Positions 48,046-61,466 of a stretch of 64,000 nt of DNA are shown here, in pieces (position 1 is the stretch's first letter; every line of letters starts with the position of its first letter). Origin of the DNA: Lysobacterales bacterium 66-474 (GTDB lineage: Bacteria > Pseudomonadota > Gammaproteobacteria > Xanthomonadales > Rhodanobacteraceae); assembly GCA_001899805.1 (NCBI GenBank), contig MKWP01000015.1:62001-126000 (forward strand), read 5' to 3'. Position numbers and translations under genes: made by a program. Under the pieces are notes generated by a model. The model was not told where the DNA came from. It did no database searches and was given only the letters and a program-made list of their open reading frames with translations.

Positions 48046-48930
48046 TCAGCGATCGCGATGGACGATGTAGCGCGCCAGCCAGCGCAGCGGTTCGGCGGCA
48101 CCGCCGAAGGGTTCCAGCGCAGCCAGCGCGTCGGCGTACAGGGCATCCGCGCGCTGCCTGGCATGGTCGAGTCCCATCAGCGACGGATAAGTTGCCTTGC
48201 CGCGCACGGCATCGGCGCCCTGGGTCTTGCCGGTGAGCGCCTGGTCGCCCTCCACGTCCAGCACATCGTCCTTGATCTGGAACGCGAGCCCCATGTTTGC
48301 GGCGAAGCGGTCCAGCGCATCGCGCGTCGCCCCCGGCAGGCCCGGCACCGCGCAGCACGGCATCAGCACCGCGGCGCGGATCAGCCTGCCGGTCTTGTCG
48401 CGATCGAGCGCCTCGAGGTCGTCGACGGCCAATTGCCTGCCTTCGGATTCCAGGTCCACCGCCTGGCCGCCGGTCATCCCGAGCGAGCCGGTCGCGGAAG
48501 CGAGGATCGCGATCATGCCCAGCCGTTCGGCGGCGGCGTGCACGCCATCGCCGGCCAGGATTTCGAAAGCGCGCGTATGCAGCGCATCACCCGCGAGGAT
48601 CGCGGTGGCGACGCCGAAAGCCTTGTGGGTGGACGGCTTGCCGCGCCGCAACGCGTCGTCGTCCATAGCCGGCAGATCGTCGTGGACCAGCGAGAAGGCG
48701 TGCACGCATTCGACCGCGCACGCGGCATCGTCCAGGCGGTCCGCGGCCACGCCCAGCGTCTCGCCGGCCGCGTAGCACAGCAGCGGACGCACGCGCTTGC
48801 CGCCGCCCAGCACCGAATAGCGCATCGCCGCGTGCAGCGTGGCCGGACGCGTGCCTTCGGCCGGCAGGCGGGCATCCAGCGCCTGTTCGACGCGCTCCAG
48901 GTAGCCGGCTGCGCGGTCCGCGAATGACAT
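48046..48930 (-). CDS. ispA: Farnesyl diphosphate synthase
   Basis: A 294-residue trans-prenyltransferase that joins DMAPP with two IPP units. The first Asp-rich motif is LVHDDLPAMDDDALRRG (about 85) and the second is AFQIKDDVLDVEGD (about 222). LGGGKRVRPLLCYA is near 38. ATG 48930 has AAGGAAG 7 nt upstream. Members of this family sit beside dxs in MEP-pathway bacteria; here it stands divergent to the squalene synthase gene with 187 nt between, consistent with supplying FPP to that enzyme. Confidence 0.93.
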   Translation of the reverse strand: MSFADRAAGYLERVEQALDARLPAEGTRPATLHAAMRYSVLGGGKRVRPLLCYAAGETLGVAADRLDDAACAVECVHAFSLVHDDLPAMDDDALRRGKPSTHKAFGVATAILAGDALHTRAFEILAGDGVHAAAERLGMIAILASATGSLGMTGGQAVDLESEGRQLAVDDLEALDRDKTGRLIRAAVLMPCCAVPGLPGATRDALDRFAANMGLAFQIKDDVLDVEGDQALTGKTQGADAVRGKATYPSLMGLDHARQRADALYADALAALEPFGGAAEPLRWLARYIVHRDR

Positions 48931-49117
48931 GGGTTGCTTCCTTGGGCGAGCGACGGGCCGTGGATATCGCGCGAGCCTAGCGAGACCCCGCGGCGCATGT
49001 CAAAACACGGCCTGCCGCCGCACCCGTCAAGGCCACCGACACGCGACTTCCACCTCGTCTTCACGCACAATGGCTAGGATCAACTGGCCGGACGCAAAGG
49101 TTCCGAGGAGTAGCAGG

Positions 49118-50254
49118 ATGATGACCCATGCTGCCGCGCGCAACCCGCGGCAAGCCGCCGAGGCGTACCAGGACCTGGTCCTGCCGGAAGTGTCGCGCAC
49201 CTTCGCGTTGACGATTCCGCAGCTCGACCCGCGCCTGCGCACGGTGATCGCGAACGCCTACCTGCTGTGCCGGATCGCCGACACCATCGAGGACGAGCAA
49301 GCGCTGCCATCCGACGTCAAGCAACAGTTCCACGACCGCTTCACCCGGGTGGTCGCCTCCACCGAGGATCCGCATTCGTTCGCGCGCGACCTCGCACCGC
49401 TGCTGCACGGCAACACGCTGGCAGCCGAACGAGACCTGGTCGCGAACACCGCGTCCATCATCGCGGTCACCGACGGCTTCAACCTCGCCCAGCGCGAATC
49501 GCTGGCGCGCTGCGTGCGCACCATGTGCACCGGCATGCCGGACTTCGAGCGCCACGCCAGCACCGCAGGCCTCGCCGACCTGCGCGAGATGGACCGCTAC
49601 TGCTACTACGTGGCGGGCATCGTCGGGCAGACCCTCACCGACCTGTTCTGCGACTACTCGCCGCGGATCGCCGAGCGGCGCGAGGCTATGTCGAAGCTGG
49701 ACGTGTCGTTCGGCCAGGGCTTGCAGATGACCAACATCCTCAAGGATTTCTGGGAGGACCGCGATCGCGGCGTATGCTGGTTGCCGCACGACCTGTTCGC
49801 GCGCGCCGGCGTCAGGCTGGAAGACATCCGCCGCAGCGACATCCCGGCGGCCTTCGGGCGCGGCTACGCGCAACTGATCGGCATCGCGCACAGCCACTTG
49901 CGCAACGCGCTGGAATACACCCTGCTGGTCCCCGAGAAGGAAACCGGCATCCGCCGCTTCTGCCTGATCGCGCTGGGCCTTGCGATGCGCACGCTGGCGT
50001 CGATCCTCGCGCAACCCGACTTCACCGCGGGCACGCAAGTGAAGGTGTCGCGCCAGGTCGTCAAGAAGATCGTGATCGCCTCGCGGCTGTTCGCCGGCTA
50101 CAGCCGAGTGTTGCAACGCTGGTTCGCGCGGCTTGCCGACGGTTTGCCGCTGCAGGCCCTGGCCGACGACTGGCGCGGCCTGCTGCCCGATCCGCGCGCG
50201 GCGTGGCCGCGCAGCGATGCCTGCGGGCCGGCCCACGCGATGCCGCTCAAATAA
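49118..50254 (+). CDS. Squalene synthase, eukaryote-like single-enzyme type
   Basis: A 378-residue head-to-head prenyl synthase. It has SRTFALTIPQLD (26-37), the first Asp motif RIADTIED (52-59), GMPDFERH, the motif EMDRYCYYVAGIVGQTLTDLF (about 145), and the second Asp motif FGQGLQMTNILKDFWEDRDRG. These match squalene synthases of the FDFT1/ERG9 kind, which condense two FPP and reduce with NADPH in one protein. HpnC and HpnD have different first-motif regions, and no HpnE is in the window. The C-terminal membrane anchor of eukaryotic forms is not evident. ATG 49118 has GAGGAG 7 nt upstream. shc begins 3 nt after the stop. Confidence 0.88.
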   Translation: MMTHAAARNPRQAAEAYQDLVLPEVSRTFALTIPQLDPRLRTVIANAYLLCRIADTIEDEQALPSDVKQQFHDRFTRVVASTEDPHSFARDLAPLLHGNTLAAERDLVANTASIIAVTDGFNLAQRESLARCVRTMCTGMPDFERHASTAGLADLREMDRYCYYVAGIVGQTLTDLFCDYSPRIAERREAMSKLDVSFGQGLQMTNILKDFWEDRDRGVCWLPHDLFARAGVRLEDIRRSDIPAAFGRGYAQLIGIAHSHLRNALEYTLLVPEKETGIRRFCLIALGLAMRTLASILAQPDFTAGTQVKVSRQVVKKIVIASRLFAGYSRVLQRWFARLADGLPLQALADDWRGLLPDPRAAWPRSDACGPAHAMPLK

Positions 50255-50257
50255 GCC

Positions 50258-52201
50258 ATGGCAGCCGACCCCGGACTCTCGCGGCACCCTTCCCCGACGA
50301 GCCATGCAGGGTCCGGCGCGCAGCCCCGCCTGGGCGACGCGATCGACGCCGCGCGCACGCGCCTGCTCGCGCGCCAGCACGCCGATGGTTTCTGGCAATA
50401 CGAACTCGAAGCGGACTGCACCATTCCCGCCGAATACATCCTGATGCTGCACTACCTCGGCGAATCCGATCGCCTGCTGGAAGCGCGGCTCGCCGCCTAC
50501 CTGCGCGATCGCCAGTGCCGCGACGGCGGCTGGCCACTGTATCCCGAAGGCGCGCTGGACGTGAGTTGCAGCGTGAAGTGCTATTTCGCGCTGAAGCTGG
50601 CCGGCGACCGCGCCGACGCGCCGCACATGCAACGGGCGCGCGCGGCGATCCTGGCGCGCGGCGGCGCCGCGCGCAGCAACGTGTTCACCCGCATCGCGCT
50701 GGCGCTGTTCGGCGAATTGCCGTGGCGCGGCGTGCCGTTCCTGCCGGTCGAGATCGTGCTGCTGCCGCGCTGGTTCCCGTTCAACCTGTCCAAGGTGTCG
50801 TACTGGTCGCGCACCGTGATGGTGCCGCTGTCGGTGCTGACCTCCCTGAAACCGCGCGCCGCGAACCCGCGCGGCGTGCACATCCGCGAATTGTTCGTCA
50901 CGCCTCCCGAGCGGGAAAAACATTATTTCCATCCGCGCTCGTTGTTGAACCGCGTGCTGTTCGTCTGCGAAGAAGCGATGCGTCGCCTCGAAGCGCTGAT
51001 CCCGAAACGATTGCGCGGGCGCGCGCTGCGCCGCGCCGAGGCGTGGATCCTCGAGCGCCGCAACGGCGACGGCGGCCTGGGCGCGATCTTTCCTGCGATG
51101 GTCAACGCCCATGAGGCGCTTGCCCTGTTCGGTTACCCGCCGGAACACCCCGTGCGCCGCGAAACCCGCAAGGCCATCGACGACCTGCTGGTGATCCGGA
51201 ACCGCGAAGCGTGGTGCCAGCCCTGCGTGTCGCCGGTGTGGGACACCGGGCTCGCCTGCCTGGCCCTGCAGGAAGACCCCGACGCGCCGGAAGCCGCCAC
51301 GCGGCGCGCGCTGGATTGGCTGGTTTCGCGCCAGTTGCGCGACGAGCCCGGCGACTGGCGCAGCTACCGCCCCGACCTGGCGGGCGGCGGCTGGGCCTTC
51401 CAGTTCCGCAACGACGCCTATCCCGACCTCGACGACACCGCTGTGGTGGCGCGCGCGCTGCAGCAATCGCCGCAACGCGCGCGGTACGCGCAAGCCATCG
51501 AGCGCGCGGCCGACTGGCTGTGCGGCATGCAGTCGAAGCGCGGCGGTTTCGCCGCATTCGACGCCGACAACGACCACCAGTGGCTCAACCAGATCCCGTT
51601 CGCCGACCACGGCGCCCTGCTCGATCCACCGACCAGCGACGTCAGCGGCCGCGTGCTGACGCTGTTGTCGTTGCTCGATCGCGCGCAGGATCGTACGATC
51701 CGCGAACGCGTGCTGCGCTTCCTCGTGGCCGAACAAACGCCGGAGGGCGCGTGGTTCGGGCGCTGGGGCACCAATTACATCTACGGCACATGGTCGGTGC
51801 TGGCCGCGCTGAGCGCGGCCGGCATGCCGGGCGACGCACCGACCTTCCGGCGCGCGCTGAAATGGCTGAAGTCGGTGCAGCAAGCCGACGGCGGTTGGGG
51901 CGAGGGCAACGACAGTTACCTCGATCCCGGACTGCGCGGCCGCGGTGCGCGCAGCGGACCGGCGCAGACCGCGTGGGCACTGCTGGCGTTGATGTCCGCG
52001 GGCGAAGCCGACAGCCCGGCGGTCGCGCGCGGCATCGACTATCTGCTGAAAACGCAGGTCGACGGCGAATGGCACGACGCGTGTTTCAACGCGCCCGGTT
52101 TCCCGCGCGTGTTCTACCTGAAATACCACGGCTACAGCCGCTATTTCCCGTACTGGGCACTGGTGCGTTACCGCAATGTCCGCGCCCGCCGCACAAGTTG
52201 A
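50258..52201 (+). CDS. shc: Squalene-hopene cyclase
   Basis: A 647-residue class II triterpene cyclase that protonates and cyclises squalene to hopene/hopanol. Catalytic DxDD is DLDD at residues 390-393 in YPDLDDTAVVA. Several QW repeats are visible (QHADGFWQYEL, GGGWAFQFR, QSKRGGFAAFD, TPEGAWFGRWG, QADGGWGEG). NPRGVHIRELFVTPPEREKHY is in the middle. The length is normal. It lies 3 nt after the squalene synthase and overlaps hpnG by 26 nt. Confidence 0.96.
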   Translation: MAADPGLSRHPSPTSHAGSGAQPRLGDAIDAARTRLLARQHADGFWQYELEADCTIPAEYILMLHYLGESDRLLEARLAAYLRDRQCRDGGWPLYPEGALDVSCSVKCYFALKLAGDRADAPHMQRARAAILARGGAARSNVFTRIALALFGELPWRGVPFLPVEIVLLPRWFPFNLSKVSYWSRTVMVPLSVLTSLKPRAANPRGVHIRELFVTPPEREKHYFHPRSLLNRVLFVCEEAMRRLEALIPKRLRGRALRRAEAWILERRNGDGGLGAIFPAMVNAHEALALFGYPPEHPVRRETRKAIDDLLVIRNREAWCQPCVSPVWDTGLACLALQEDPDAPEAATRRALDWLVSRQLRDEPGDWRSYRPDLAGGGWAFQFRNDAYPDLDDTAVVARALQQSPQRARYAQAIERAADWLCGMQSKRGGFAAFDADNDHQWLNQIPFADHGALLDPPTSDVSGRVLTLLSLLDRAQDRTIRERVLRFLVAEQTPEGAWFGRWGTNYIYGTWSVLAALSAAGMPGDAPTFRRALKWLKSVQQADGGWGEGNDSYLDPGLRGRGARSGPAQTAWALLALMSAGEADSPAVARGIDYLLKTQVDGEWHDACFNAPGFPRVFYLKYHGYSRYFPYWALVRYRNVRARRTS

Positions 52202-52919
52202 GGACGCCGGTCGCGACGTCACCGGCCCCGCTGTGATCGGATTGATCGTCGCCCTGCCCGCCGAAGCCCGCAGCATGGGCATGCGTGACACACGCCCGGG
52301 CGCCTGCGTGCGCTGGCACGAAGGTTGGGCGGCGGTCTCGGGCACCGGCCCGTACAACGCCATGCGCGCGGCCGAGCGCCTGCTCGCCTGCGGCGTGACC
52401 CGGCTGGCGAACTGGGGCGTGGCCGGCGCACTGGACGCCGATCTCGCGCCCGGCGACCTGCTGGTCCCGGATCGCATCCTGTACGCGCACGGCGACCCCG
52501 GATTCGGCGTCGACCCGGACGCCGGCGCGAGGCTCGCCGCGATCTTCGCCGGGTCGCTGCGGGTACGCCGCGGCGCGCTGTGGTCGGTGCAACAACCGCT
52601 CGCTTCGCAGGCCGACAAGCGCGCTCTCGCGGCGCGCAGCGGCGCGCGTGCGGTGGACATGGAAGCCGCACCGATAGCCGCGGTCGCGGCGCGCGCCAGG
52701 CTGCCGTTCGTCGCGGTGAAGGCGATCTGCGATCCGGTGACCCGCGAGGTGCCGCGAAGCATCGCGCAGACGATCGGCGACCGCGGCGTCTCGATGCGGA
52801 TGCTGGCGGCGATCGTGCTGGGCGGCCCCTCGACCTGGCACGCAACGCACGCCCTGGCGCGTGATTTCGCACGGGCGCGACGCACGCTCGCGGCGGCCGC
52901 GCGGCTGTCCGCCGCATGA
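52176..52919 (+). CDS. hpnG: Hopanoid-associated phosphorylase HpnG
   Basis: A 247-residue nucleoside phosphorylase-like protein. GLIVALPAEARSMG starts the fold, ANWGVAGALDADLAPGDLLVPDRI is in the middle, and AVDMEAAPIAAVAARARLPFVAVKAICD holds the active-site Glu. HpnG cleaves adenine from adenosylhopane to give ribosylhopane (or its phosphate), the step after HpnH. It overlaps the end of shc and shares ATGA with hpnA. Confidence 0.9.
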   Translation: MSAPAAQVEDAGRDVTGPAVIGLIVALPAEARSMGMRDTRPGACVRWHEGWAAVSGTGPYNAMRAAERLLACGVTRLANWGVAGALDADLAPGDLLVPDRILYAHGDPGFGVDPDAGARLAAIFAGSLRVRRGALWSVQQPLASQADKRALAARSGARAVDMEAAPIAAVAARARLPFVAVKAICDPVTREVPRSIAQTIGDRGVSMRMLAAIVLGGPSTWHATHALARDFARARRTLAAAARLSAA

Positions 52920-53908
52920 GCGCGCGGGTCCTCGTCAGCGGCGCCAGCGGATTCGTGGGATCGGCGGTGACTCGCGCGCTGCTGCGCCACGGTTACGCGG
53001 TGCGTGCATTGGTGCGTCCGGCCGGCGACACGGCCAACCTCGACGGCCTCGACGTCGAGATCGTGCGCGGCGACCTGCTCGACGCGCCATCGCTGGAACG
53101 CGCGCTCGCCGGTTGCGAAGGCCTGTTCCACGTCGCCGCCGACTACCGCCTGTGGGCACGCGATCCGCACGAGATCCGCAAGGCCAACGTGCGCGGCACC
53201 CATAACATCCTGCTCGCCGCACAACGCTGCGGAGTGCGGCGTGTCGTGCACACGTCCAGCGTCGCAACGCTCGGCCTGCACGCCGACGGCACGCCGGCCG
53301 ACGAAGCCACGCCCGCGCGCCTCGCCGACATGATCGGTGCGTACAAGCGTTCCAAGTTCCTTTCCGAGGCGCTGGCGCGACGCTGCGCCGACGCGGGCCG
53401 CGACATCGTGATCGTGAATCCTTCGGCGCCGGTGGGTCCGCGCGACCGCAAGCCGACCCCGACCGGCCGCACCATCCTCGACGCCGCGCGCGGACGCATG
53501 CCGGCGTATGTCGATACCGGGCTCAACATCGTGCACGTGGACGACGTGGCCGAGGGCCACGTGCTCGCCTACGAGCATGGCCAACGCGGCCGACGCTATG
53601 TGCTGGGCGGCGAAAACATGAGCCTGCGCGACATACTGCAAACGGTCGCCGCACTCGCCGGCCGCCACGGGCCCTGGCTGAAGCTGCCGCACGGCGTGGT
53701 ACTGCCGGTCGCCCACGGCGCCGAAGCCTGGGCACGCGTCACGGGCATCGCGCCGAGCATCACGGTGGATGGCGTGAAACTGGCCCGCCACCATATGTAT
53801 TTCTCCAGCCTCCGCGCCGAAACCGAACTCGGCTACCGTGCACGGCCGGCGCGGGAAGCGCTGGCGGACGCAATACAATGGTTCCAGGACAATGGGTATC
53901 TTGTCTGA
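52916..53908 (+). CDS. hpnA: Hopanoid-associated sugar epimerase HpnA
   Basis: A 330-residue NAD-dependent epimerase/dehydratase (SDR). The cofactor motif is VLVSGASGFVGSAVTRALL (5-23), the catalytic Tyr-Lys pair is probably in IGAYKRSKFLSE (about 142), and VVNPSAPVGPRDRKPTPTG is the HpnA-like segment near 163. Its substrate in hopanoid biosynthesis is not established. It begins in the hpnG stop. A 152-bp repeat follows before mvaD. Confidence 0.88.
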   Translation: MSARVLVSGASGFVGSAVTRALLRHGYAVRALVRPAGDTANLDGLDVEIVRGDLLDAPSLERALAGCEGLFHVAADYRLWARDPHEIRKANVRGTHNILLAAQRCGVRRVVHTSSVATLGLHADGTPADEATPARLADMIGAYKRSKFLSEALARRCADAGRDIVIVNPSAPVGPRDRKPTPTGRTILDAARGRMPAYVDTGLNIVHVDDVAEGHVLAYEHGQRGRRYVLGGENMSLRDILQTVAALAGRHGPWLKLPHGVVLPVAHGAEAWARVTGIAPSITVDGVKLARHHMYFSSLRAETELGYRARPAREALADAIQWFQDNGYLV

Positions 53909-53936
53909 CCTTGGCCCATATTCGGTGATTTTCGAT

Positions 53937-54088
53937 CGTCATTCCGGGGCCACCGCCGCTCCATGGGCGATGACGCGGGGAGCGGCCAGGGACGGCCGCG
54001 TTTCGAGGAGTGAGGAAACCCGGAATCGGTTCGCGTTGAAAAACCCGATTCCGGGTTCTGCCCGCAGGCGGGCAGCCCCGGAATGACG
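53937..54088. mobile_element. MITE-like 152-bp element with 14-bp perfect terminal inverted repeats
   Basis: CGTCATTCCGGGGC (53937-53950) and its exact complement (54075-54088) bound the element. Inside is a perfect 13-bp hairpin (AACCCGGAATCGG / CCGATTCCGGGTT) and a smaller GCCCGC/GCGGGC hairpin. No coding frame is supported. No clear target-site duplication was seen. It separates the hopanoid genes hpnF-G-A from the mevalonate genes. Confidence 0.75.
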
Positions 54089-54130
54089 AAGAGAAGAATG
54101 TGCCCCACGACTGAAAACGAGTCACGACGG

Positions 54131-55126
54131 ATGACTGCGCCAATCCGGTACGCCACTGCCACAGCGCAGCCCAACATCGCGCTGGTCAAGTACTGGGGCA
54201 AACGCGACGACGAGCTGAACCTGCCCGCGGCGGGTTCGTTGTCGGTCACGCTGGATGCGCTGCACACGCGCACGTCGGTGCGTTTCGATCCCGCGCTCGA
54301 CGCAGACGACGTCCTGTTGAACGGCGAGCGCGACGCGGCACAGACCCGCAAGATCGGCGCGTTCCTCGACCTGTTCCGCGCACGCGCCGGGGTCGAAACC
54401 CGCGCGCGCGTCGAATCCGGCAACGACTTTCCGACCGGCGCGGGATTGGCATCGTCCGCATCCGGGTTCGCGGCACTCGCCGTGGCAGCCGATCGCGCGC
54501 TGGGGCTGAACCTCGCCTCGCGCGAACTGTCGCTGCTGGCACGTCGCGGCTCCGGTTCGGCGGCGCGTTCGATCTTCGGCGGTTTCGTGGAAATGGCCGC
54601 GGGCAAGCGCGAAGACGGCGAGGACGCGTTCGCGGCGCCGTTGCTGGATGCCGTGGCATGGCCGCTCGAGGTCGTGGTGGCGATCACCACCCGCGCGAAG
54701 AAAGCCATCACTTCGCGCGACGGCATGGACCACACGCGCAAGACCTCGCCGTTCTACCGCGACTGGATCGCCACCGCGAACGCCGACCTCGGCGATGCGC
54801 GCGTGGCGGTGCTGGCGCGCGATTTCGACAAGCTGGCGCGGCTTGGTGAAGCCAGTTGCCTCGCGATGCACGCGGTGATGCTGTCCGCGCGCCCCGGCCT
54901 GATCTACTGGAATGCCGCGACGCTCGACTGCATGCGCTGCATCCATGCCCTGCGCCGCGAAGGCGCAGGCGTATTCTTCACCATCGACGCCGGCCCGCAG
55001 GTGAAGGCGGTCTGCCTGCCCGGACACGCCGCACGCGTCGCCGCCGCGCTGCGCGAGGTGCAAGGCGTCGAGGAAGCGCAAATCAGCGGCCTCGGCGAAG
55101 GCGCGCGTGTCGAGGCCGGCGCTTGA
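54131..55126 (+). CDS. mvaD: Diphosphomevalonate decarboxylase
   Basis: A 331-residue GHMP-superfamily enzyme that makes IPP from mevalonate diphosphate using ATP. Motifs: AQPNIALVKYWGKRD (about 10), LPAAGSLSVTLD (about 30), PTGAGLASSASGFAALAVA (about 101), GSGSAARSIFGGFVEM (about 142), then FFTIDAGPQVKAVCLPG near 281. The length is normal. ATG 54131 is chosen; an upstream ATG in the repeat is out of family. It overlaps the next gene (TTGA). Confidence 0.93.
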   Translation: MTAPIRYATATAQPNIALVKYWGKRDDELNLPAAGSLSVTLDALHTRTSVRFDPALDADDVLLNGERDAAQTRKIGAFLDLFRARAGVETRARVESGNDFPTGAGLASSASGFAALAVAADRALGLNLASRELSLLARRGSGSAARSIFGGFVEMAAGKREDGEDAFAAPLLDAVAWPLEVVVAITTRAKKAITSRDGMDHTRKTSPFYRDWIATANADLGDARVAVLARDFDKLARLGEASCLAMHAVMLSARPGLIYWNAATLDCMRCIHALRREGAGVFFTIDAGPQVKAVCLPGHAARVAAALREVQGVEEAQISGLGEGARVEAGA

Positions 55127-56148
55127 CGTCGATTGTCGCCAGCGCACCCGGCAAACTGGTATTGCTGGGCGAATACGCGGTGCTGGAAGGCGCACCGGCG
55201 CTGGCGCTGGCGGTGGATCGCCGCGCACGCGCGACGCTGGCGCCTGCCACTGACGACGCCTGGGAAATCGTGTCGCCAACATTCGGGGTGGAAGCCCGCT
55301 TGCGGATGGACGGCGCCGGCGCCGCGTGGTCGGATGCGGCGCCGGACGCGCTTGCATGGGTTGCGACCCTGCTCGGTCAGTTTCATCCAGGGGCGCACCT
55401 GCCGCCTTGCCGCGTCGAACTCGACAGCGATGCATTCCACGTCGAGCACGCCGGCAAGCCGGCCAAGCTGGGCCTGGGATCGAGCGCCGCGCTGGCGGTC
55501 GCCCTGCTCGGCGCGTTGCACGCGATCGCGCAGAAACCCGCACCGACGCTGGACGAATGCGTGCGGACACATCGCGCGATCCAGCACGGCCACGGCAGCG
55601 GCATCGATATCGCCGCGTCGTTTTCGGGTGGTTTGCTGCGCTACCAGCTGGATGGGAACGCGACGCGCAGCGTCCCGGCCAGGTTGCCTGAAGGCCTGCG
55701 CTGGCGCTGCGTTTACAGCGGCCGCCCGGCTTCGACCCGCGCGATGCTGGCAACCGTCGCGGGGTGGCGTGAACGCGACCCCGCTGCCTTCGCGCACTGC
55801 ATGCACGAACTCGCTACAATTTCTTCACGCGGTATTGACGCCTTGGCCGCCAACGATGCCGCCGCCTTCCTGTCCTGTCTCCACGATTACGCAACATCCC
55901 TGGCCCGCTTCGGTGAAGCCGCGGGCGCGGACATCGCCAGCCGCGAGCATCGGGCGATCGCCGCGATCGCCGCGGATTGCGGGTGCGTCTACAAGAGCTG
56001 CGGCGCCGGCGGCGGTGACATAGGCGTCACGTTTGCCGTGGAAGATACGCGGTTGCGGGATTTCTCCGCGCGCGCGTTGCGCGCCGGCTTTCCCGTGATC
56101 GGGCTGGAAGCGGACCCCACGGGTCTGGAGGTCGTTTCGAACGTTTGA
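55123..56148 (+). CDS. Phosphomevalonate kinase
   Basis: A 341-residue GHMP kinase. ASAPGKLVLLGEYAVLEGAPALALAVDRR opens the protein (ATP/substrate side), the Gly-rich loop is KLGLGSSAALAVALLGAL (about 111), HGHGSGIDIAASFSGGLLRY is near 154 and KSCGAGGGDIGVTF near 290. These match ERG8/MvaK2-type phosphomevalonate kinases and not mevalonate kinase. It makes mevalonate diphosphate for MvaD. It starts with TTG 55123 overlapping the mvaD stop. A separate GHMP gene here means the kinase half of the next protein need only do the first phosphorylation. Confidence 0.88.
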   Translation: MTSIVASAPGKLVLLGEYAVLEGAPALALAVDRRARATLAPATDDAWEIVSPTFGVEARLRMDGAGAAWSDAAPDALAWVATLLGQFHPGAHLPPCRVELDSDAFHVEHAGKPAKLGLGSSAALAVALLGALHAIAQKPAPTLDECVRTHRAIQHGHGSGIDIAASFSGGLLRYQLDGNATRSVPARLPEGLRWRCVYSGRPASTRAMLATVAGWRERDPAAFAHCMHELATISSRGIDALAANDAAAFLSCLHDYATSLARFGEAAGADIASREHRAIAAIAADCGCVYKSCGAGGGDIGVTFAVEDTRLRDFSARALRAGFPVIGLEADPTGLEVVSNV

Positions 56149-56168
56149 GACTTTGCAAGGAATCCAAG

Positions 56169-58427
56169 ATGGACCAGTCGAGATTTCCGGGTTTCTACAA
56201 GTTGTCGGTGTCCGAGCGCGTGAACCTGGTGCGCGAGCGGGGCCTGCTTTCACGCGAGGATTTCCAGACCCTGTCCAGCGGCGCGCACACGCTCAACGTC
56301 GCGCGCGCCGACAAGATGATCGAGAACGTGATCGGCGTGATGGGACTGCCGCTCGGACTCGGCCTCAACTTCCTGATCAACGGCAAGGACCACGTGGTGC
56401 CGCTGGTGGTCGAGGAACCCTCGATCGTGGCGGCGTTGTCCTCGGCCGCGAAGCTGGTGCGTGCCGCAGGCGGTTTCACCACGCGCAGCACCGATCCGAT
56501 CCTGATCGGCCAGGTGCAGATCGTCGATTGCGACAATTCCGCTGCGGCGCAAACCGCGCTGCTGCAACGCAAGCAGGAAATCCTGAACCTCGCCAACAGC
56601 CTGCACCCGAAGATGGTGGCACGCGGCGGCGGCGCCAGGGACATCGAGGTACGCATCCACCCGGCCGCCGATGGCCGCCGCGACATGGTGGTGCTGCACC
56701 TGCTGGTGAATACCTGCGACGCGATGGGCGCCAACATGGTCAACACCATGTGCGAAGGCGTGGCGCCGCTGGTGGAAGGCATCACCGGGGGCAAGGTGTT
56801 CCTGCGGATCCTTTCCAACCTCACCGACCGCGCGTTGGTGTGGGCGAAAGCCGTGATCCCGACGAAACTCCTTGCAGAAAGAGGTTTCGACGGCGAGCAG
56901 GTGCGCGACGGGATCATCCTCGCCAATGACCTCGCGGTGTGCGATCCGTACCGCGCCGCCACCCACAACAAGGGCATCATGAACGGCGTGGATGCAGTCG
57001 CGCTCGCGACCGGCAACGACTGGCGCGCACTGGAAGCCGCCGCGCACGCCTACGCCGCACGCGGCGCGCACTACAGCTCGCTGACGCGCTGGTACAAGGA
57101 CGACCAGGGCAACCTCGTCGGCAACATCGAGATGCCGATGAAGGTCGGCACCGTGGGCGGCAACCTGCAATCGAACGCCACCGTCGCGCTCAACCTGCGC
57201 GTGCTGAAAGCCGGAAGCGCGCGCGAATTGGCGGAAATCATGGGCGCGGTCGGCCTGGCGCAGAACTTCTCCGCGCTGCGTGCACTGGTCACCGACGGCA
57301 TCCAGCAAGGCCACATGACCTTGCACGCGCGCTCGGTGGCCGTTAGCGCGGGCGCGACGCCGGAGATATTCGAAACCGTGGTCGAGCGCCTGCTCGACAG
57401 CGGCGAGATCAAGGTGTGGAAGGCCAAGGAGATCATCGCCGAAGTGCAAACCCATGCCAAACCCGAAGCCAGGACGGTCGCGCAGGGTTTCGAGCCGGTC
57501 GAGGAAGCCGAATACGCGACCGGCTACGGCAAGGCGATCCTGCTCGGCGAACACGCGGTGGTGTACGGCCGCCACGCGATCGCGGTGCCGGTGCCGATGG
57601 CGATCCGCGCGCGCGCCGAGGAATCGAACGACGGCACGCAACTCATCATTCCGCGCTGGGGTGTCGAATCACGCCTGCACCCCGGCACGAAGCACCCGGG
57701 CTCGTTCCTGCAATCGCTGGAAATGATCCTGCAAAAACTCGAACTCACCGATCGGCCACTGCGCATCCAGGTCTACCCCAACCTGCCGCGCGCCAACGGC
57801 CTCGGTGGTTCGGCCGCGCTCGCCGTGGCGGTGATCCGCGCGCTTGGCCACCACTGCGCACTGGGCCTCACGGACCAGCAGGTGTGCGAGCTTGCCTACG
57901 AATGCGAACGCGTCGCCCACGGCACGCCGTCCGGCATCGACAACACCGTCGCGACCTACGGCCAGCCGCTGCTGTTCCAGCGCGGCGAACCGCCGGTGAT
58001 CGAGCCGCTGCATTTCGCCAGGCCGCTGCCGATGGTGATCGGCCTGTCGGGCGTGGAAAGCCTGACCGCGCGCACCGTCGGCCGCGTGCGCGAGGCGTGG
58101 CAGCGCAACCGGAAACTCTACGAGCGCATCTTCGACGAGATCGATTCGCTGGCGATGCAGGGCATCAAGGCACTGGAAGCGTGGGACCTGCAACAGTTCG
58201 GCGAGTTGATGAACATCTGCCAGGGCCAGTTGAACGCGCTGCAGGTATCGAGCTGGGAACTGGAAGAAATGATCCAGGTCGCACGCGCCAACGGCGCGGT
58301 GGGCGCCAAGCTCACCGGCGGCGGCGGCGGCGGCGCGATGATCGCGTTGTGCCCGGATGATCCGGGCCGCGTGGTGCGTGCGTTGCAGCAGGCGGGCTAT
58401 CAGGCGATGGAGAGCAGCATTGGGTGA
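56169..58427 (+). CDS. HMG-CoA reductase (class II) fused to mevalonate kinase
   Basis: A 752-residue protein with two complete enzymes. Residues 1-430 are a class II HMG-CoA reductase: Glu83 in VVEEPSIVAALS, Lys268 in THNKGIMNG, Asp284 in ATGNDWRA and His382 in GIQQGHM align one-for-one (offset 0-1) with the catalytic residues of the Pseudomonas mevalonii enzyme. Residues 450-752 are a GHMP mevalonate kinase: GYGKAILLGEHAVVYG (Lys455), LPRANGLGGSAALAVAV (540-556), HGTPSGIDNTVATYG (Asp591) and KLTGGGGGGAM (714). The linker (about 430-450) is short. It would turn HMG-CoA into 5-phosphomevalonate. AAGGA lies before ATG 56169. The idi start overlaps its end. No frameshift or internal stop is seen. 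Confidence 0.93.
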   Translation: MDQSRFPGFYKLSVSERVNLVRERGLLSREDFQTLSSGAHTLNVARADKMIENVIGVMGLPLGLGLNFLINGKDHVVPLVVEEPSIVAALSSAAKLVRAAGGFTTRSTDPILIGQVQIVDCDNSAAAQTALLQRKQEILNLANSLHPKMVARGGGARDIEVRIHPAADGRRDMVVLHLLVNTCDAMGANMVNTMCEGVAPLVEGITGGKVFLRILSNLTDRALVWAKAVIPTKLLAERGFDGEQVRDGIILANDLAVCDPYRAATHNKGIMNGVDAVALATGNDWRALEAAAHAYAARGAHYSSLTRWYKDDQGNLVGNIEMPMKVGTVGGNLQSNATVALNLRVLKAGSARELAEIMGAVGLAQNFSALRALVTDGIQQGHMTLHARSVAVSAGATPEIFETVVERLLDSGEIKVWKAKEIIAEVQTHAKPEARTVAQGFEPVEEAEYATGYGKAILLGEHAVVYGRHAIAVPVPMAIRARAEESNDGTQLIIPRWGVESRLHPGTKHPGSFLQSLEMILQKLELTDRPLRIQVYPNLPRANGLGGSAALAVAVIRALGHHCALGLTDQQVCELAYECERVAHGTPSGIDNTVATYGQPLLFQRGEPPVIEPLHFARPLPMVIGLSGVESLTARTVGRVREAWQRNRKLYERIFDEIDSLAMQGIKALEAWDLQQFGELMNICQGQLNALQVSSWELEEMIQVARANGAVGAKLTGGGGGGAMIALCPDDPGRVVRALQQAGYQAMESSIG

Positions 58428-59019
58428 CCGGCAAGACAATCGGGTGGTGTCGTTCGATTCCGAACGCTTGATCCTGGTCGACGAGATGGATCGCGAGATC
58501 GGCCACGCCAGCAAGGCCGACGCGCACGCCGGCCGCGGCATCCTGCACCGCGCGTTCTCGCTGTTCGTGTTCAACCCCGCGGGAGAACTGCTGCTGCAGC
58601 AGCGCGCGGTCGCGAAACCCTTGTGGCCCGGCTACTGGGCCAACAGTTGCTGCAGCCATCCGCGCGGTGGCGAGGACATGGACACCGCGACGCAGCGGCG
58701 TTTGCACGAAGAGCTTGGCTTCACCTGCCCGCTCGAGTTCATCTACAAGTTCCAGTACCACGCCGAGTATGGCGACGCCGGTTCGGAGACCGAACTGTGC
58801 TGGGTGTACGTCGGCGTGTCCGATGCGCCGGTGCGCGTCAACGAAACCGAAATCGCCGCGTGGCGTTACGTGAAGCCGGAAGACCTCGACCGCGAGATCA
58901 CGGAATCGCCCGAACACTTCACGCCATGGCTGAAGCTGGAATGGCAGCGGTTGCGCAGCGAATTCGCCAACCGCTTGCCGGGCAGCGACGAACCGCCGCG
59001 CCGCCAGCGCGAAGCCTGA
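58420..59019 (+). CDS. idi: Isopentenyl-diphosphate isomerase, type 1
   Basis: A 199-residue Nudix-fold isomerase converting IPP to DMAPP, needed in organisms that make IPP by the mevalonate route. The active-site Cys is in GYWANSCCSHPRGGED (about 77) and the Glu pair in GSETELCWVYVG (about 120). LILVDEMDREIGHASK opens the domain. The start is unusual: TTG 58420 overlaps the fusion gene's stop with GGAGAG upstream. In-frame GTGs at 58444 and 58447 follow GACAAT and are an alternative. Confidence 0.92.
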   Translation: MGDRQDNRVVSFDSERLILVDEMDREIGHASKADAHAGRGILHRAFSLFVFNPAGELLLQQRAVAKPLWPGYWANSCCSHPRGGEDMDTATQRRLHEELGFTCPLEFIYKFQYHAEYGDAGSETELCWVYVGVSDAPVRVNETEIAAWRYVKPEDLDREITESPEHFTPWLKLEWQRLRSEFANRLPGSDEPPRRQREA

Positions 59020-59194
59020 TCCGCGCGCCAATCGGCGTGCCGTTGCCGCGCTGGTCCTGAAAAACCCGTTAACCTGCCGGGCGGCGCCTCAACGCCGCGT
59101 TGACACGCGGCGGTCCAACATGCAGGCAGACGGGCTCCGCGCGAAACATGCGGGGGCCGGCACGACGCCCAGGCGCGCCGCAGGAGATTCGAGC

Positions 59195-60325
59195 ATGTCG
59201 ATTCCCGTTCGCCAACAATTGAAGGTTGCCACCTACATCATCGGGCGCCGCCTGCACGGCGTGAAGCGTTATCCGCTCACGCTGATGCTGGAGCCGTTGT
59301 TCCAGTGCAACCTCGCCTGCCCAGGTTGCGGCAAGATCGATTACGACTCGCACATCCTGAAGCAGCGCCTGTCGGTCGAAGAGTGCCTTGCGGCGGTCGA
59401 CGAATGCGGCGCGCCGATGGTGTCGATCCCTGGCGGCGAGCCGCTGATCCACCATGACATCAAGCAGATCGTCGAAGGCATCATCGCGCGCGGCAAGTAC
59501 GTGTACCTGTGCACCAATGCGATCCTGCTGGAAAAGAAGCTCGACCTGTTCACGCCCTCGGACCACCTGACGTTTTCGGTGCACCTCGACGGCATGCGCG
59601 AGCGCCACGACGAAAGCGTGGGCCGCGAAGGCATCTTCGACATCGCGGTGTCGGCGATCCGCGCCGCCAAGCAGCGCGGATTCCGCGTCAACATCAACAC
59701 CACGCTGTTCACCACCGCGAAACCCGACGAGGTCGCCGAGTTCTTCGACTTCGCCAGCAACGACCTGAAGGTCGACGGCATCACGGTGTCGCCGGGTTAC
59801 CACTACGAGCATGCGCCGCGCCAGGACGTGTTCATGGGACGCCGGCAATCGAAGGAATTGTTCCGCAACATCTTCAAGCGCAGGAAGGCCACGCACGGCA
59901 AATGGCCGTTGTCGCACTCCAGCCTGTTCCTCGACTTCGTGTGCGGCAACCAGGGCTACCAGTGCAGCGCATGGAGCATGCCGTGCCGCAACGTGTTCGG
60001 CTGGCAAAAGCCGTGTTATCTGCTGGTGGATGAGGGCTACGAGAAGACCTTCTCCGACCTGATGCACAACACCAAGTGGGACAACTACGGCGTCGGCCGC
60101 AATCCGAAATGCGCGAATTGCATGGCGCATTGCGGATTCGAAGGCACCGCCGCTGCCGACGCGTTCGCGCATCCGCTGAAGGCCCTGTGGACCAGCCTGC
60201 GCGGCCCGAAACTCACGGGGCCTTTCGCCACCGATCCGCCGATCCTGTACGACACGCCGGAGCCGAACCAGCGCCACCCGCACAGCAACATCCCGATCGC
60301 TCACTTCGGCGGTATCCAGCACTGA
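59195..60325 (+). CDS. hpnH: Adenosyl-hopene transferase HpnH (radical SAM)
   Basis: A 376-residue radical SAM enzyme that adds the 5'-deoxyadenosyl group to diploptene, the first step of C35 hopanoid side-chain extension. The cluster motif CNLACPGC (Cys38, 42, 45) is followed by GGEPLIHHDIKQIVEG. HpnH-typical segments are SIPVRQQLKVATYIIGRRL at the start and KCANCMAHCGFEGTAAADAF near the end. ATG 59195 follows AGGAGATTC. The 175-nt gap after idi holds no gene. Confidence 0.95.
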   Translation: MSIPVRQQLKVATYIIGRRLHGVKRYPLTLMLEPLFQCNLACPGCGKIDYDSHILKQRLSVEECLAAVDECGAPMVSIPGGEPLIHHDIKQIVEGIIARGKYVYLCTNAILLEKKLDLFTPSDHLTFSVHLDGMRERHDESVGREGIFDIAVSAIRAAKQRGFRVNINTTLFTTAKPDEVAEFFDFASNDLKVDGITVSPGYHYEHAPRQDVFMGRRQSKELFRNIFKRRKATHGKWPLSHSSLFLDFVCGNQGYQCSAWSMPCRNVFGWQKPCYLLVDEGYEKTFSDLMHNTKWDNYGVGRNPKCANCMAHCGFEGTAAADAFAHPLKALWTSLRGPKLTGPFATDPPILYDTPEPNQRHPHSNIPIAHFGGIQH

Positions 60326-60347
60326 CGGCGCGCATGGGGCAGCGAGC

Positions 60348-61466
60348 ATGATCCTGCTGATCCCCGCCGCCCTCGCCCTGGCTTGCTGGATCGGCGTATT
60401 GCTCGCACCGTGGCGTGCGTGGCTTTGCCGCGAACGTCTGGAGGCCGATCCGGCACCATTGAAGCCGCGCCTGGATTTCACGGTGTTGATCCCCGCCCGC
60501 AACGAAGCGCGGGGGATCGGCGAAACCCTGCGCGCGCTTGCCCTCGCCGCGCCCGACGCACCGGTGATCGTGATCGACGACCAATCGAGTGACGACACCG
60601 CGGCCATCGCGCGCACCAGCGGCCTGCCGAACCTCACCGTCATCCCCGGCACGCCGCCGCCGATTGGCTGGACCGGCAAACTGTGGGCGTTGCAGCAAGG
60701 CCTCGAACACGTCGCCACGCCACGGGTGTTGTTGCTGGATGCCGACATCCGGCTCGCGCCGGGCATCGTCCCGCCGCTGCAACGCAAGGCCGACGAAGGT
60801 TGCGCGCTGGTATCGCTGTGCGCGGAACCGCTCTGGAGTGGTATGGCCACCCGCTGGCTGATGCCTGCATTCGTGTATTTCTTCAAGCTGCTGTACCCGT
60901 TCGCGCTGGCCAACCATCAAGGATCGCAGGTGGCCGCAGCGGCGGGTGGCGTGATCCTGGTCGACCGCGCCGCGTTGCTCGACGCCGGCGGCTTCGGCGC
61001 ATGGCGCGACGCGATCATCGACGACTGCGCGCTGGCCGCGCACGTCAAGCGCAGGGGCTACCGGTGCTGGATCGGATTGACGCATGGCGCGACCAGCCGG
61101 CGCCGCGCGGGCTTTCGCGACATCGCGCACATGGTCGCACGCACCGCGTTCGTGCAGTTGCACGAATCGCTGTTGCTGACGCTTGCGGTTTCGGTCCTGC
61201 TCGTCGTGGCATTCTGGATGCCGTTTCCCGCGATCGCATCCGGCATGGGCGACACGGTTCGCGTGGTCGGCATGCTGGCCGCCCTCGCGATGTTCGCGTG
61301 CCATCTGCCCACGCTGATGTACTACCGCCGCAACCCGCTGGCCGCGTTGCTGCTGCCGCTTGCGGCGACGTTCTTTCTCGCGGCGACCTGGTACTCCGCG
61401 TGGCGCGCGCTGGCCGGCACCCGCTCGGTATGGAAAGGCCGCAGCTACCGTCGCGAGGCGGGTTGA
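60348..61466 (+). CDS. hpnB: Hopene-associated glycosyltransferase HpnB
   Basis: A 372-residue family 2 glycosyltransferase in the membrane. One N-terminal helix (2-20) is followed by a GT-A domain with FTVLIPARNEARGIGETL (about 44), VIVIDDQSSDDTAA (about 75) and LLLDADIRLAPG (about 128), then several membrane helices. The family is found with hopanoid genes, but its acceptor is not established. It is 22 nt after hpnH and abuts the acyltransferase gene (TGAATG). Confidence 0.88.
   Translation: MILLIPAALALACWIGVLLAPWRAWLCRERLEADPAPLKPRLDFTVLIPARNEARGIGETLRALALAAPDAPVIVIDDQSSDDTAAIARTSGLPNLTVIPGTPPPIGWTGKLWALQQGLEHVATPRVLLLDADIRLAPGIVPPLQRKADEGCALVSLCAEPLWSGMATRWLMPAFVYFFKLLYPFALANHQGSQVAAAAGGVILVDRAALLDAGGFGAWRDAIIDDCALAAHVKRRGYRCWIGLTHGATSRRRAGFRDIAHMVARTAFVQLHESLLLTLAVSVLLVVAFWMPFPAIASGMGDTVRVVGMLAALAMFACHLPTLMYYRRNPLAALLLPLAATFFLAATWYSAWRALAGTRSVWKGRSYRREAG

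Follow-up and report, generated by a model that had tools for sequence, protein, structure and literature searches.

Class II HMG-CoA reductases (HMGRs) form dimers or hexamers, and mevalonate kinases (MvKs) form dimers. Enterococcus MvaE is a natural fusion of an acetoacetyl-CoA thiolase with a class II HMGR, in which the thiolase is located on the N-terminal side; the corresponding PDB entry, 7m1z, bears the name of a thiolase. The best solved relatives of the reductase described here are the Pseudomonas mevalonii HMGR (1qax) and 6dio, with which the whole fold can be aligned, including the C-terminal flap part, at 410 and 400 bits, respectively. The P. mevalonii HMGR shares the catalytic Glu/Lys/Asp/His set of the protein. 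Both 1qax and 6dio are standalone enzymes that carry Asp in the cofactor helix, whereas the protein described here has His146 and Arg152 and an attached kinase. The mevalonate kinases 2hfs and 2x7i score 142 and 137 bits against its GHMP kinase half but are separate chains, and none of the 48 matched sequences in the PDB spans both halves.

Domain make-up of the fusion

The window (the whole stretch of 64,000 nucleotides that was analysed) contains a single stop-free frame of 752 residues that runs from ATG to TGA and comprises the following parts:

56169..58427, plus strand: HMGR–MvK fusion protein P0001, 752 residues, coordinates including the stop codon
56169..57329, plus strand: class II HMGR core, residues 1-387 (NCBIfam TIGR00532, 419 bits, cut-off 259.95), with invariant E83, K268, D284, and H382, and with H146 and R152 in the cofactor helix
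57330..57446, plus strand: small C-terminal part of HMGR (the flap), residues 388-426, conserved; the 1qax alignment reaches residue 422
57447..57521, plus strand: tether, residues 427-451, variable in sequence and length
57522..58424, plus strand: mevalonate kinase, residues 452-752 (NCBIfam TIGR00549, 237 bits over residues 454-727, cut-off 163), with K455, S548, E580, D591, and a Gly-rich stretch at 717-722

The presence of an HMGR, a variable tether, and an MvK in one uninterrupted frame is confirmed. The first-pass annotation had described two full-length, catalytically intact enzymes on one chain that join consecutive steps, HMG-CoA reductase and then mevalonate kinase; both halves exceed the cut-offs of these families and keep the catalytic residues, in full agreement with that description. 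Pfam places HMG-CoA_red at residues 14-387, GHMP_kinases_N at 517-597, and GHMP_kinases_C at 666-744, and the match to the NADPH family TIGR00533 reaches just 56 bits against a cut-off of 441.8. No thiolase family was found on P0001 with Pfam or NCBIfam, and the protein is therefore not of the MvaE type. A stop codon or frameshift was looked for near residues 430-450 and is absent, and independent assemblies read on through this region without a break. Intact fusions are found in the single-contig genomes G004, G014, and G032, and another carrier, G475, has one contig of 4,978,541 bases in a 5.0 Mb genome. ATG 56169 is taken as the start of the fusion because the conserved match begins there, at residue 1-4 of the ATG version in all of the best 80 of 333 relatives, and a Shine-Dalgarno-like AAGGA lies upstream; the TTG at 56145 given by a mechanical list of open reading frames was rejected on the same ground.

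Among the 92 distinct fusions, that of the window included, Glu83, Lys268, Asp284, His382, Lys455, and Asp591 are identical throughout, and the same holds for Ser548 and Glu580. In the wider set that also includes the Calditrichota fusions (114 rows), Glu83 is unread (X) in one row, and the other seven residues are identical in all 114. The mean share of the commonest residue in this set is 0.78 for the HMGR core, 0.73 for the flap part (computed over residues 389-426), and 0.70 for the kinase, with 0.31 for the tether, the length of which ranges from 13 to 30 residues. Pairwise distances of the HMGR half and the kinase half are correlated across the 114 rows (r 0.88; 0 of 999 permutations as high). 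This correlation, together with the variability of the tether, suggests that the two enzymes travel together and that the join is a loose tether; since the tether is not conserved, built-in channelling appears improbable, and a conserved tunnel at the junction is unlikely.

The mevalonate operon and its hopanoid neighbourhood

The fusion resides in an operon with the order diphosphomevalonate decarboxylase (MDD), phosphomevalonate kinase (PMK)-like kinase, fusion, and type I isopentenyl-diphosphate isomerase (IDI), in which neighbouring genes overlap or are separated by short gaps. From 48929 to 61466 of the window, this operon is interleaved with hopanoid genes:

48929..50254, plus strand: squalene/phytoene-synthase family protein (PF00494, 179 bits; TIGR01559, 120.8 bits, under cut-off)
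50258..52201, plus strand: squalene-hopene cyclase (TIGR01507, 799.5 bits)
52176..52919, plus strand: HpnG-like phosphorylase (TIGR03468, 143.8 bits, under the cut-off of 187)
52916..53908, plus strand: HpnA (TIGR03466, 487.6 bits)
54083..55126, plus strand: MDD, P0002 (TIGR01240, 292 bits, cut-off 171)
55123..56148, plus strand: GHMP kinase P0003, probable PMK by position and conserved synteny
58444..59019, plus strand: type I IDI (NF002995, 170 bits, and TIGR02150, 154 bits, both over cut-off)
59120..60325, plus strand: HpnH, radical SAM adenosyl-hopene transferase (TIGR03470, 517.8 bits)
60348..61466, plus strand: HpnB-like glycosyltransferase (TIGR03469, 306.2 bits, under the cut-off of 379)

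The start of P0003 overlaps the stop of the MDD gene by 4 bases, and its matches remain under all cut-offs (TIGR00549, 94.5 bits; TIGR01220, 89.5 bits). Where the IDI gene starts is uncertain: with the ATG at 58357 it would overlap the fusion, and the GTG at 58444 is the better fit to the start of the family. In a set of 80 loci (L021-L100), 76 extend far enough downstream to hold an IDI gene, and all 76 have an IDI match 20-237 bases after the fusion, on its strand; MDD and PMK lie upstream in 52 of the 62 loci that extend far enough on that side. In 24 of 25 further loci, mostly from Calditrichota, IDI again follows the fusion on the same strand; at L212, IDI was not seen within 1.6 kb downstream of the fusion. 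Hopanoid genes (squalene-hopene cyclase or hpn) are near the fusion in 21 of the 50 loci with enough flank, indicating that the hopanoid link is lineage-bound. The squalene-synthase-like gene of the window encodes one protein, which resembles TIGR01559 more than it does HpnC or HpnD, with all matches below cut-off.

The genes of the window that were scanned revealed no HMG-CoA synthase. A divergent HMG-CoA synthase, P0005, is encoded at G000:C15:1080291-1081775 (L105, L116), unlinked to the operon, and scores 157 bits against TIGR01835, for which the cut-off is 360. The classical mevalonate pathway here is represented by HMGR, MvK, and MDD over their cut-offs and by the HMG-CoA synthase P0005 and the PMK-like P0003 below theirs. 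In a set of 61 genomes (its own and 60 relatives), P0005 accompanies the fusion in 17 of the 20 genomes that carry the latter, one of these matches being a 42-residue fragment, and HMG-CoA synthase was not found in the fusion genomes G002, G045, and G060. In the 41 genomes of this set without the fusion, P0005 found no match except for one weak hit (G024, E 2e-4). At the loci L030, L081, L221, and L226, HMG-CoA synthase shares the locus of the fusion.

Distribution, origin, and the MEP pathway

The first-pass annotation had suggested a search for other single chains with both domains, and this search revealed that the fusion is widespread in gammaproteobacteria and reaches other phyla, so that it is not an isolated case or a product of assembly. 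Full-length fusions occur in 20 of the 61 genomes: in 14 of the 16 of the genus, in 1 of the 21 in the rest of the family, and in 5 of the 24 in the rest of the order. A contig scan confirmed 333 relatives, the best 80 of which all cover nearly the whole query; these 80 include cultured Rhodanobacter lindaniclasticus, Dyella, Wenzhouxiangella, Litchfieldella, and Marinobacter, as well as metagenome-assembled genomes (MAGs) with the labels Actinobacteria, Nakamurella, Calditrichaeota, and Melioribacteraceae. Besides gammaproteobacteria, the carriers comprise MAGs labelled Actinomycetota or Ignavibacteriota and at least 35 of the 40 genomes sampled from Calditrichota. The fused state of 123 of the 138 fetched loci with an HMGR match (92 distinct sequences) is not a frequency, because the loci were mostly fetched with the fusion as query and some genomes were counted twice. 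A sample of 369 genomes of the class contains HMGR over cut-off in 72, with a frame of more than 750 residues in 10 and a kinase inside that frame in 9; the tenth, an 847-residue frame in G297, was rejected as a fusion, as it lacks a mevalonate kinase. Other gammaproteobacteria of this sample carry HMGR unfused. The fusions at L073 and L076, from two MAGs labelled Actinobacteria, are almost identical and occupy a separate long branch; a binning error is possible for these MAGs. A very divergent gammaproteobacterial fusion with 51% identity (G225:C16, L221) occurs in a genome with a second, separate HMGR elsewhere.

Calditrichota, the phylum of G452 (whose record is labelled Calditrichia), was sampled with 40 genomes. 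The whole fusion is present in 32 of these and truncated copies that span the junction in 3 (G484, G494, and G500), whereas G486, G504, and G508 hold only pieces that do not span it; no fusion was found in G497 and G507. The two halves of G508 are found on different contigs (G508:C280 and G508:C230), each at a contig end, with the break near query residue 409. The fusion is present in 2 of 57 genomes from the family to which the Melioribacteraceae MAG belongs, and none of 46 matched plasmid records covers 80% of the query.

The origin of the fusion was approached through two trees of the HMGR half, both of which are quick searches. In the first, of 97 rows, 10 same-genus rows were omitted beforehand; in the second, of 83 rows, 34 of the 97 rows (including 5 long standalone rows) and 6 of 25 newly fetched ones were omitted. 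The 15 standalone enzymes comprise 5 class-sample loci that were matched well by tblastn and 10 of the 46 plasmid records. A single branch separates the fused HMGR halves from 10 standalone enzymes in the 83-row tree with an SH-aLRT of 100, and from 15 standalone rows in the 97-row tree with an SH-aLRT of only 81. A single origin of the fusion is likely but not proven, because standalone biosynthetic class II enzymes from other phyla are scarcely sampled in these trees. In the 83-row tree, the Calditrichota rows form a well-supported group together with 2 rows from the family of the Melioribacteraceae MAG and 2 gammaproteobacterial rows.

Dxr and IspH were searched for as markers of the MEP pathway. 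Neither was matched in the 20 fusion genomes of the 61, and both were matched in the 41 genomes without the fusion, one of which, G052, has a Dxr match that is partial and below cut-off. Within the window's genus, G011 and G015 contain Dxr and IspH but no fusion, and the other 14 genomes show the reverse; absence is less telling in incomplete genomes such as G008 (73% complete) and G007 (81%). The strict mutual exclusion of fusion and MEP pathway that held in the 61 genomes was rejected as a general rule by fusion genomes that contain Dxr. Among 50 fusion genomes chosen from the best 80, Dxr was not matched in 40, is over cut-off in 9 (all nine of which also contain IspH), and present as a weak fragment in 1. 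In the class sample, Dxr is absent in 8 of the 9 true fusion genomes and present in 1. Four of the 40 Calditrichota genomes have Dxr over cut-off (G496, G497, G508, and G510), and in G509 it is found in pieces; three of these four have fusion matches, those of G508 being pieces only, and G497 has none. Taken together, the operon, its co-occurrence with the absence of Dxr and IspH, and the HMG-CoA synthase indicate that the MEP pathway has given way here to a mevalonate pathway with the fusion at its core. The distribution fits a history in which the mevalonate operon was gained and the MEP genes were subsequently lost, with the dual genomes in between, although this order of events is one that we infer.

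Mode of action and comparison with known systems

The explanation as a whole that we consider very probable is that P0001 is a bifunctional enzyme of the mevalonate pathway, with its halves tethered 1:1 and the reductase subject to a pull by the kinase. The N-terminal half would convert HMG-CoA into mevalonate, with NADPH as the probable cofactor; the C-terminal half would phosphorylate this mevalonate in an ATP-dependent step, while the short flexible tether would fix the 1:1 ratio of the halves and their nearness. The irreversible, ATP-driven kinase step would pull the reversible class II reductase forward and thereby keep free mevalonate low. Together with the neighbouring PMK-like kinase, MDD, and IDI and the HMG-CoA synthase encoded elsewhere, the fusion would form a mevalonate pathway that appears to be the only visible isoprenoid source in this genome, in which Dxr and IspH were not found.

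The cofactor and the direction of the reductase bear on this explanation. According to PMC13370337, which cites Miller and Kung, enzymes that use NADH carry Dx(V/L)xxxL and those that use NADPH carry (H/Y)xSxxxR, and a study of the Ruegeria enzyme (PMC12292504) reports that an Asp-to-Lys exchange at a cofactor-binding Asp opens the use of NADPH; this Asp is taken to be at the same position as residue 146 of the fusion. Position 146 is Asp in 13 of the 15 standalone class II enzymes, and none of the fusions has this Asp of the degradative, NADH-dependent P. mevalonii type: it is replaced by His in 91 of the 92, all of which also contain Arg152, and by Gln in one. Arg152 is found in 92 of 92 fusions and in 113 of 114 rows of the wider set, and at the third position of the NADPH motif none of the 92 fusions has Ser, the residues there being K, N, R, Q, or H. 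Judged from these residues, use of NADPH and a reductive direction of the HMGR half are likely. That the HMGR half is instead degradative, oxidising mevalonate to HMG-CoA as in P. mevalonii while the kinase half competes for it or salvages it, is suggested by the best NCBIfam label (TIGR00532, 'degradative'), by the P. mevalonii type of the best solved relatives, and by the 10 plasmid-borne standalone relatives, 3 of which adjoin a TRAP-transporter gene and 1 an HMG-CoA lyase gene; nevertheless, the replacement of Asp146 by His, the neighbouring MDD, PMK-like kinase, and IDI, and the 20 relatives without Dxr or IspH as another source of isoprenoids render it extremely unlikely.

True channelling, in which the active sites or an oligomer of fused chains would pass mevalonate on without release into the bulk, as the first-pass annotation had considered possible, agrees with the consecutive nature of the two steps, with a fusion that occurs across phyla and whose halves co-vary, and with the retention of the flap part directly ahead of the tether. 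However, a tether that varies in sequence and in length does not resemble a built tunnel, and other gammaproteobacteria carry an unfused HMGR, so we regard channelling as unlikely. Names of GHMP kinases are easily misassigned, and the fusion adjoins a gene for another GHMP kinase, which might point to a different substrate of the kinase half or to a regulatory relic; this is very unlikely given a TIGR00549 score over its cut-off and the invariance of Lys455, Ser548, Glu580, and Asp591, and the fused kinase is the sole MvK over cut-off among the matches listed for 15 true fusion genomes. Many of the loci come from MAG data, in which two genes could have been joined by an error of assembly or frame, but such an artefact is refuted because the homologues share the junction; with the same junction in 92 distinct sequences and single-contig genomes among the carriers, its probability is negligible. 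The tethered bifunctional enzyme is the reading that we retain. A bolder extension of it, in which an oligomer of fused chains would retain mevalonate within a reductase–kinase cluster and a portable operon would have repeatedly displaced the MEP pathway after transfer across phyla, with the dual genomes of Rhodanobacter, Dyella, Litchfieldella, and Marinobacter caught midway, is speculative and rather improbable.

A natural and widely kept single chain of reductase and kinase offers a testbed for the effects of fusion on flux and on mevalonate leakage. As carriers without MEP markers, dual-pathway genomes, and two MEP-only non-carriers of the same genus exist side by side, the individual steps by which an essential pathway is replaced become open to study. 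The 'degradative' label could mislead the annotation of genomes that bear the fusion.

The earlier remark that no fusion of HMGR with MvK could be named from known bacteria agrees with the open-access literature, in which, judged by titles and the starts of abstracts among the matches listed, no description of such a fusion was met. In the main text of a 2026 survey (PMC13001223), as covered by a term search, IspDF is the only fusion named. Frames of 756-760 residues that encode HMG-CoA synthase followed by MvK, with both halves over cut-off, were observed at L186:223-2505 and L183:196-2466, and L180 and L190 are alike to these by phmmer, with the kinase over cut-off; the four frames belong to the genomes G162, G113, G377, and G278 of other gammaproteobacteria. 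At L188:2327-3808 (minus strand, script count; G086), a stop-free stretch of 494 residues with MDD followed by IDI reaches the edge of the locus and may be a third mevalonate fusion. In the HMG-CoA synthase–MvK frames, MvK is likewise fused to an enzyme of the mevalonate pathway, but the partner is a different one, the steps joined are not consecutive, and HMGR occupies a separate frame. In comparison with MvaE, in which the thiolase precedes the reductase, the fusion described here has the next downstream enzyme attached on the C-terminal side. Its families are known, and so is the habit of fusion, as exemplified by MvaE; an earlier listing may exist elsewhere, and what appears to be new is the pairing of HMGR with MvK and its wide, informative distribution.
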